Shown here piece by piece: positions 54,288-56,755 of a DNA stretch of 64,000 nucleotides. Source of the DNA: Micavibrio sp. (GTDB lineage: Bacteria > Pseudomonadota > Alphaproteobacteria > Micavibrionales > Micavibrionaceae). Positions within the stretch are counted from its first letter, which is position 1. Each line of letters starts with the position of its first letter. The stretch covers positions 124,001 to 188,000 of the forward strand of contig BQJE01000004.1 in NCBI GenBank assembly GCA_021604545.1, read 5' to 3'. The notes beneath the pieces are model-generated. The model saw only the letters and a program-made list of their open reading frames with translations, was not told the origin of the DNA and did not search any database. The position numbers and the translations under genes were made by a program.

Positions 54288-54331
54288 AAATTTTATTGCG
54301 TAAAACACGCAAATCTGGTTTTAATACTCCT

Positions 54332-54385
54332 ATGAACGCACAGGCAGAAAATCTGAACCTATTGCTGCTCCTACTCTGCCCCTGA
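54332..54385 (+). CDS. leuL: leucine-rich leader peptide of leuA (attenuator peptide)
   Basis: A 17-codon frame reads MNAQAENLNLLLLLLCP then TGA, with seven Leu codons, six of them consecutive (CTA TTG CTG CTC CTA CTC), directly upstream of leuA. This is the hallmark of translation-coupled attenuation: ribosome stalling when charged tRNA-Leu is scarce would report leucine status. A TAATAC at 54322-54327 could be the -10 element, which would put the transcription start at or within a few bases of the ATG. No ribosome-binding site is visible, consistent with a leaderless leader peptide as described for trpL in Sinorhizobium. Confidence 0.75.
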   Translation: MNAQAENLNLLLLLLCP

Positions 54386-54424
54386 GCGGGTATGAGGCGC
54401 CTAGCCGCGCCTGCGCTCCAGGGG
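54379..54424 (+). promoter_or_regulatory. attenuator-like RNA structure overlapping the leuL stop
   Basis: CCCCTGAGCG (54379-54388) pairs with CGCTCCAGGGG (54414-54424) with one bulge, enclosing a six-base-pair inner hairpin (AGGCGC/GCGCCT at about 54395-54412). An alternative pairing, GGCAG (about 54342-54346... 54347) with CTGCC (54376-54380), is possible inside leuL. No T-run follows, so the downstream effect may not be classic intrinsic termination. Confidence 0.55.
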
Positions 54425-54483
54425 ATTTCACAAAACTTCCGAAACATTGATAAAAAAGTAAAAGCGCTTTAAAAGGAGCAGCT

Positions 54484-56043
54484 ATGAGCAGTAAAGACCA
54501 GATCGTCATATTCGACACAACACTAAGAGACGGCGAACAATCGCCGGGCTGTTCTATGAATCTTGAGGAGAAGCTGAAAATGGCGCGGCTTCTTGATGAG
54601 ATGGGTGTTGATATTATTGAGGCTGGCTTTCCTGTGGCTTCGCCGGGTGACTTTGAAGCGGTTAATGAAATTGCCAAGACGGTAAAAAATTCTGTGGTTT
54701 GTGGTTTGTCACGGGCCAAAAAGGCTGACATCGAAGCCTCTGGGGATGCGATCAAGCCGGCCAAACGAAAACGCATTCACACTTTTATTTCAACTTCGCC
54801 GTTACATATGAAACATAAGCTGCAAATGCCGCCGGAACAGGTTCTAGAGGCGGTGGCCGAAAGTGTGACCTTTGCGCGTAACTTTACCGATGATGTTGAG
54901 TGGAGCGCGGAAGATGCGTCGCGCACTGAAGATGATTTTCTTTGTCATGCGGTAGAAATTGCGATCAACTCAGGTGCGACAACGGTCAATATTCCCGATA
55001 CGGTTGGTTATACTATTCCCGAGGAATACGGTGCCAAGATCGCGATGCTGATGGAGCGCGTGCCGAATATCGATAAAGCGATTATTTCCACCCACTGTCA
55101 CAATGATTTGGGACTGGCCGTGGCTAATTCTCTTGCAGGTGTTGCGAACGGTGCGCGGCAGATTGAATGTACCATCAACGGTATTGGTGAACGTGCCGGC
55201 AATGCGGCGCTCGAAGAAATTGTTATGGCGCTGCGCACACGTCACGACATGATGCCCTACACCACCAATATCGAGACCGAAAAAATTACCAAAATTTCGC
55301 GTACACTTTCGGCGATTACCGGCTTTGCTGTGCAGCCTAACAAGGCGATTGTCGGCGCCAATGCTTTCGCCCATGAAAGTGGCATTCATCAGGATGGCAT
55401 GCTCAAACACGCCAACACCTATGAGATCATGACGCCGGAATCCGTGGGGCTTACGGAGAGCAAACTGGTGATGGGTAAGCATTCTGGCCGTCATGCGTTT
55501 AAAACTAAACTGGCGGAGCTGGGATTTGAGCTTGGTGATAATGCGTTGCAGGAAGCGTTTGCACGGTTTAAAAACCTTGCCGATAAAAAGAAGGAAATTT
55601 TCGAAGACGATTTGATTGCGCTGGTCGAGGATGAAGTGGTGCGCGAAAATGAACGGATAAAATTTGTCTCTTTGCAGATTGTGGCCGGCACGAAAGGCCC
55701 GCAGACTGCTGAGCTTACTTTGAGCATTGATGGCGCTGAAAAAATCACGAAGGTCGAAGGCAATGGCCCTGTTGATGCGATCTTCAAAGCTATTCGTGAG
55801 ATTGAGCCGCATGCGGATGCTCATTTGAAGCTTTATCAGGTGCATGCTGTCACTGGTGGTACGGACGCCCAAGCCGAAGTGACGGTACGGCTGGAGGAAA
55901 ATGGCCGGACAGTGAACGGGCAGGGCGCGGATGCCGATACGCTGGTGGCTTCGGCGCGGGCCTATATTAACGCGCTGAACAAGCTTATGATGAAACGAGA
56001 AGGCTTTAATCCGCAAACCGCGAGTGACGCGCTAGCGCCTTAA
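54484..56043 (+). CDS. leuA: 2-isopropylmalate synthase LeuA
   Basis: First committed step of leucine synthesis, condensing acetyl-CoA with 2-oxoisovalerate. The N-terminal catalytic signature is '[17 protein letters not shown]', with the metal-binding '[41 protein letters not shown]'. The C-terminal allosteric domain ('[23 protein letters not shown]' to the end) should bind leucine. At 519 residues it is full length. AAGGAG precedes the ATG, and a leucine-rich leader peptide lies 98 bases upstream, so control by both attenuation and feedback is expected. Confidence 0.97.
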
Positions 56044-56675
56044 AGCTGCTTTTTTATTTTCTCAAAAACATCTTCAAACATTTCTGTCGTCAGACGCTTC
56101 GTATTGGTGTTGTAGCGTGAGCAGTGATAGCTATCGATGAGGGTAATGCCGCCACTCATGTCATGCGTAGCGTTATGCGCAAATTTATGCGCGCTGATTT
56201 TTTGTCCAAAGGTTTTTACAACGGCGTTGTGCGATATAAGGCCAAGGCTCAAGATCACTTTCAAATTCTTCATCTCCTCAATCTCATGCACCAAAAAAGA
56301 ACGGCAGGTATTCATCTCTTCCGTGATTGGCTTATTCTCCGGCGGCACGCAGCGCACGGCATTGGTGATGCGGCAGTTCTTGAGCGCCAACCCGTCATCC
56401 GCATGTGCCTCGTAATCCCCTTCGGCAAACCCAAATTTCAGCAGCGTCGCATAGAGCAAATCACCAGCATAATCACCGGTAAAGGGCCGTCCGGTGAAAT
56501 TGGCGCCTTTGAGTCCTGGTGCCAGCCCAACAACCAATAATTCCGCGTCCTGAGAGCCAAAAGAGGGCACCGGCGCATTGAATTTATCCGGGAATTTGCC
56601 CCGGTTTTCCTCCCGAAAAGCCTGAAGGCGCGGGCATAAATTGCAGTCTTTGTCTGGTGCTTTCTCGGGGATCAT
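56040..56675 (-). CDS. uracil-DNA glycosylase, family 5 (UdgB-like)
   Basis: A 211-residue iron-sulfur glycosylase that removes uracil and deaminated bases. The start at 56675 ('MIPEKAPDKDC') has TAGGA upstream; the frame is open to 56750. The cluster cysteines are in 'DKDCNLCPRL', 'VRCVPPENKP' and 'MNTCRSF'. The active-site motif 'VVGLAPGLKGANFTGRPFTGDYAGD' and 'LIDSYHCSRYNTNTKRLT' mark family 5 rather than family 4. It converges on leuA with a four-base overlap. Confidence 0.93.
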   Translation of the reverse strand: MIPEKAPDKDCNLCPRLQAFREENRGKFPDKFNAPVPSFGSQDAELLVVGLAPGLKGANFTGRPFTGDYAGDLLYATLLKFGFAEGDYEAHADDGLALKNCRITNAVRCVPPENKPITEEMNTCRSFLVHEIEEMKNLKVILSLGLISHNAVVKTFGQKISAHKFAHNATHDMSGGITLIDSYHCSRYNTNTKRLTTEMFEDVFEKIKKQL

Positions 56676-56755
56676 GATTTTCCTACCCAATGCTTGCTTT
56701 TTAAGGGAAAACTGACTATAAAGCCTTCTCTGGCAAAAGGAAAAGGACATTATTT

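Follow-up and report, generated by a model that had tools for sequence, protein, structure and literature searches.

Upstream of leuA, a short leader reading frame with a run of Leu codons was found which, at a probability of about three in four, belongs to a leucine-responsive translational attenuator, the response to leucine itself being predicted. Comparison with related genomes supports the reading frame, its conservation, the hairpin P1/P2, the pairing of the Leu codons with the Shine-Dalgarno (SD) region of leuA and the absence of an intrinsic terminator. This pairing suggests a control at the level of translation and not by transcription termination. What we infer in the model is that ribosomes stall, in which direction leuA responds and in what order the RNA folds. 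All coordinates refer to the window, i.e. the whole stretch of 64,000 nucleotides that was analysed, and are compiled in Table 1.

Table 1. Positions of the leuA leader elements in the window.
Feature	Position	Strand	Remarks
-35 hexamer TTGCGT, leader promoter	54296..54301	+	TTG[AC] kept in relatives
-10 hexamer TTTAAT, leader promoter	54320..54325	+	gap of 6 nt, leading to a predicted +1 at the leader ATG
Leader-peptide ORF MNAQAENLNLLLLLLCP	54332..54385	+	17 codons, predicted leaderless, stop TGA 54383-54385
Putative sensing run, six consecutive Leu codons CTA TTG CTG CTC CTA CTC	54359..54376	+	two are CTA
Leader arm GCTGCTCCT of the long-range helix	54364..54372	+	inside the Leu run; minimum-energy fold, coevolution
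P1 5' arm CCCCTGAGCG	54379..54388	+	includes the leader stop codon
P2 apical stem AGGCGC...GCGCCT	54395..54412	+	inside P1; compensatory changes, swap test z = 9.0
P1 3' arm CGCTCCAGGGG	54414..54424	+	followed by ATTTCAC, no T-run
SD arm AGGAGCAGC of the long-range helix	54474..54482	+	leuA Shine-Dalgarno region, 9 bp with the leader arm
leuA, 2-isopropylmalate synthase, 519 aa	54484..56043	+	Pfam HMGL-like, HCS_D2, LeuA_dimer (allosteric)

Leader reading frame and its promoter

The leader reading frame is located between a Trm112-like gene and leuA. The six Leu codons that a first-pass annotation of the window had recognised before leuA, including the two CTA, were confirmed, and a run of six Leu was unique to this reading frame when all six frames of the 64-kb window were considered. 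With regard to leuA itself, a minus-strand ORF of 236 aa (56040-56750) overlaps the last 4 bases of the gene tail to tail, and leuA therefore seems to be transcribed as a single gene.

Among leuA upstream regions gathered from the family and the order, 54 sequences, representing 24 genera, were found to carry an equivalent leader. The leaders of the relatives mostly comprise 16-19 codons, are rich in Leu and usually carry Pro just before the stop codon, and the stretch around the leader end is conserved as CTCCTTATnCGCCCCTGAGCGGGCATGAGGCG...CGCCTGCGCTTCAGGGGA. Accordingly, the Leu run, on whose conservation the first-pass annotation had made its reading depend, is kept among the relatives. The leaders of the own genus showed an enrichment of CTA (0.26 compared to 0.07). 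Family-wide, the excess of Leu codons falls on CTT and CTC, which are the codons able to pair with an SD, and the idea that the Leu codons were picked merely for their rarity was rejected on this basis.

The two promoter hexamers are separated by a spacer of 18 nt and predict a transcription start at position 54332, the A of the leader ATG. TAATAC (54322-54327), on which an earlier proposal of a leaderless mRNA had been founded, overlaps with the -10 hexamer TTTAAT, which begins two bases further left. Among the relatives, 50/54 sequences had TTG[AC] between -43 and -31 relative to the leader ATG, compared to 11/54 in an upstream control stretch. The family score for the combined -35 and -10 elements amounted to 7.3 at the leader ATG, while positions nearby scored 5.8 and the leuA ATG 5.9, and the score profile of the family with the gap between -10 and ATG fixed at 6 nt peaked at offset 0. 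Within the family, the leaderless start of the leader predicted from this conserved promoter position is well supported. As a class-wide feature it is unsupported, since in other alphaproteobacteria, for which the start codon of the leader was guessed, the promoter signal scored 6.24 compared to 6.17 for the control. The earlier proposal is thus supported for the family and not for the class. It had also been noted that the leader has no ribosome-binding site (RBS), and this agrees with a family mean SD score of 6.8 at the leader ATG, compared to 12.5 at leuA and 5.3 in a control region.

A second promoter-like site, TTGATA-N17-TAAAAG (54447-54475), is located between P1 and leuA, and transcription from it would start at about 54482, two bases ahead of the leuA ATG. 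Similar sites were observed in 21/54 relatives compared to 4.8 expected from shuffles, mostly with a spacing of exactly 17 nt and often with AAGCGC ahead of the -10 element. From this site, a leuA mRNA without leader could be produced.

Hairpin P1/P2 and the lack of a terminator

The strong stem that had been described at the end of the leader is present as P1, which encloses the apical stem P2. Together, both stems comprise 15 pairs, of which 9 showed two-sided compensatory changes. The swap test for the arms of P1 resulted in z = 9.1, and the folding energy of the leader region in z = -2.55 against shuffles. At least five T within the 8 nt following P1 were found in only 2/54 relatives, 2/50 other alphaproteobacteria and 1/26 fresh genera. 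Due to this absence of a T-run in the window and in nearly all relatives, an intrinsic terminator after P1 was rejected; that the T-run is missing in the window had already been noted at first inspection.

These data make a classical leu attenuator of the enteric type, with an intrinsic terminator, very improbable. The element does share with the enteric attenuator (leuL; Rfam Leu_leader) a leader peptide with a run of Leu codons upstream of leuA. In contrast to leuL, however, the T-run is missing, the Leu codons pair with the SD instead, and an Rfam search with the window and seven relatives gave no family match even at E<=1. Model R2 gave no match to the upstream region of E. coli leuA, which served as a control and in which seven T follow a G+C-rich hairpin. 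With a T-run after P1 lacking in almost all sequences, the alphaproteobacterial element is not considered an attenuator of the enteric type, which bears out the earlier suspicion that the mechanism may differ from the enteric one.

Transcription attenuation could also take place in another form, with P1 acting as a U-less pause or as a Rho-linked terminator, so that a stalled ribosome would block P1 and transcription would go on. A stalled ribosome would cover the 5' arm of P1, in which the leader stop codon lies, and P1 is both strong and covarying. Furthermore, an alternative local hairpin of the last leader codons with AUGAGG showed moderate covariation (z = 5.8 for all sequences, 2.3-2.8 with one sequence per genus), as expected of competing attenuator hairpins. 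This hairpin may compete with P1, and its copy in the window seems weak. Silenced translation of leuA could, in addition, bring about a secondary Rho termination. Against these points stand the rarity of T-runs after P1 and the coevolution between Leu run and leuA SD described below, which a purely transcriptional switch leaves unexplained. Altogether, transcription attenuation is regarded as unlikely.

Pairing of the Leu codons with the leuA Shine-Dalgarno region

In the window, the minimum-energy fold contains a perfect helix of 9 bp between the Leu run and the leuA SD region, which encloses P1/P2. Leu codons such as CTCCTT are complementary to any SD, and for this reason a swap test was used that retains such trivial complementarity: native pairs of leader and RBS were compared with leaders and RBSs swapped between genomes. 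For the 54 sequences, the native helix score was 17.57 compared to 14.86 for the swapped pairs, corresponding to z = 7.7 and 0/20000 permutations, and with one sequence per genus z ranged from 5.3 to 7.2. Five controls with other segments, calculated for the 54 sequences, showed z values from -1.9 to 0.6. When 55 pairs of UTR segments were scanned, the combination of Leu run and RBS was the strongest one outside the local hairpin (z = 5.5). The signal was replicated in 26 fresh genera obtained by a covariance-model search, with z = 4.2-7.4 and 0/20000 permutations, compared to -0.7 to 2.0 for the controls. An earlier set of 50 other alphaproteobacteria also showed high values for the pairing (z = 5.5-9.3), but as two of its controls were positive as well (2.2 and 3.6), this set is considered to be partly confounded by composition or relatedness.

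Covarying pairs are TCCTTCCC:GGGAAGGA (locus L017), GATCTCCTC:GAGGAGATC (L145), GCTCCTAAA:TTTAGGAGC (L113), TGCTCCTTA:TAAGGAGCA (L127) and TCCTTCGA:TCGAAGGA (L030). At locus L076, CCTTCGACTTAGGTG pairs with CACCTGAGTCGAAGG over 15 bp including one G-U. Some relatives (L012, L123 and L136) have kept the leader and showed a weak pairing of the Leu run with the SD. The defined compensatory base pairs, some of which belong to named species in culture, make the helix testable.

By constrained folding of the 54 sequences, the modelled mean unpaired probability of the SD was 0.25 in the free RNA and 0.22 when a ribosome occupied the first codons. A ribosome placed on the Leu run resulted in a value of 0.50, with an increase in 38/54 sequences and a decrease in none. 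The change modelled for the window's own SD was smaller (from 0.27 to 0.38). The putative stall region overlaps the strand that would sequester the leuA RBS. The same arrangement is known from the translational attenuators of erm and cat genes, in which the stall site lies within the RNA arm hiding the downstream ribosome-binding site. Unlike in these systems, the signal here would be uncharged Leu-tRNA and not an antibiotic.

For the leucine-responsive translational attenuator, the following course is proposed. Transcription would begin at the leader ATG, as suggested by the promoter position. With plentiful charged Leu-tRNA, ribosomes would complete the 17-codon leader and exit at the stop codon inside P1, after which P1/P2 would close, the Leu codons would pair with the leuA SD and the translation of leuA would be low. 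When leucine is scarce, a ribosome would stall on the Leu codons and cover the leader arm, so that the SD would be free and leuA would be translated. A point against this model is that any ribosome on the leader, stalled or not, would expose the SD. Further points against it are the weak pairing in some relatives, the small change modelled for the window's own SD and the Leu-codon mutations in the actinobacterial counterpart, which reportedly departed from the predictions of classical attenuation (PMC1262725). The term attenuator used in the first-pass annotation is thus kept for a Leu leader peptide before leuA, but not in its transcriptional sense, as there is no intrinsic terminator and the SD is paired instead.

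The helix could also be a static or protein-bound element controlling translation, with no sensing of leucine by translation of the leader. Leader mutations in Streptomyces coelicolor, which reportedly behaved unlike classical attenuation (PMC1262725), could be explained in this way. However, the Leu-rich codons lie in frame directly before the stop codon and the promoter is conserved at the ATG, across 24 genera, and non-Leu codons could pair with the SD equally well, which renders a static or protein-bound helix quite improbable. If the translational attenuator is the true explanation, sensing and switching share the same nucleotides.

Distribution and comparison with known leaders

In the own genome (2.15 Mb), the covariance model found exactly one copy of the element, at the leuA leader locus (E=1.2e-14). 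A class-wide covariance model matched 95/289 alphaproteobacterial genomes at E<=0.01, and all of the best 30 genome-wide matches were located directly upstream of leuA. By inspection independent of the model, the same element was recognised in 50/73 non-Micavibrio alphaproteobacterial loci. Cultured carriers of the element are Methylobacterium bullatum (E=6.4e-15), Elioraea tepidiphila, Terasakiella brassicae and Phaeobacter inhibens (E=2.2e-6), and Paracoccus denitrificans showed a weak match (E=0.029). In the latter (locus L199, about 502-600), the leader ends in LLLLTLR and TCCTTCTTC is perfectly complementary to GAAGAAGGA before leuA, and the CCCC:GGGG part of P1 is missing. A comparison with NCBIfam models gave no match for five longer leader peptides, of which the Paracoccus query was approximate (two extra residues after the first Met).

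In seven genomes of the family from two genera (L156-L162), LeuA has a length of about 380-397 aa and seems to lack the allosteric domain at its C-terminus, and the leader element is absent in all seven, as if feedback inhibition and attenuation had been lost together. The element is also absent in about 18 genomes with a full-length leuA.

For proteobacteria, attenuation by amino acids has commonly been reported as a termination of transcription. In the present case, the RBS appears to be masked by the very codons that would sense leucine, in a form that occurs across many families of Alphaproteobacteria and is not represented in Rfam. We consider it reasonably likely that these elements represent an undescribed, class-wide group of alphaproteobacterial leucine riboregulators, in which the Leu codons of the leader act as an anti-Shine-Dalgarno of leuA, and which are, by convergence or descent, the counterpart of the actinobacterial LEU element. 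No description of an alphaproteobacterial leuA leader was found in an open paper library. The attenuator surveys Vitreschak 2004 and Lopatovskaya 2010 might include such leaders, which makes the priority uncertain.

The LEU element was described as a Leu-run leader before leuA whose Leu codons pair with the leuA SD, with no terminator (PMC1262725). On account of mutational data, its authors, Seliverstov et al., were sceptical of attenuation and proposed a bound protein (PMC1262725), and the description of 2005 left the element without an agreed mechanism. On the evidence of sequence, the alphaproteobacterial element would work like the LEU element, without a claim of membership. According to the description, both share the Leu-run leader ORF directly upstream of leuA, the lack of a terminator and a base stem of Leu codons with the leuA SD. 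In contrast to the LEU element, the hosts are Alphaproteobacteria, the leader usually ends in Pro, and the hairpin P1/P2 with the stop codon in its 5' arm (CCCCTGA...CAGGGG) is found between the arms instead of the described pseudoknot. The scan of 55 segment pairs showed only P1/P2 between the arms, although it might miss a pseudoknot made up of just a few pairs.

With regard to the start of the leader, leuL1 of S. lividans, with the leader MRFGLLLLSCRGEGL, is leaderless (PMC8079986), as is predicted here. The same holds true for trpL of Sinorhizobium meliloti, a leaderless transcription attenuator that releases an sRNA (PMC10117765), and thus for another alphaproteobacterial leader ORF beginning, in our case by prediction, at the first base of the mRNA. 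Unlike trpL, the leuA leader has no terminator, and the earlier hint at a comparable trans-acting product was not substantiated, since a terminator by which a small RNA could be released was not found. The ilv leader of Caulobacter likewise encodes a branched-chain amino acid leader peptide in an alphaproteobacterium, but it comprises Ile/Val codons and a Rho-independent terminator hairpin (PMC4117421), compared to Leu codons and no such terminator in the leuA leader. Finally, the leaders of L078, L083 and L103 end in LLLLSCP or LLLSCP and resemble the LLLLSC in the leuA leader of S. lividans, which could originate from chance, convergence or descent.
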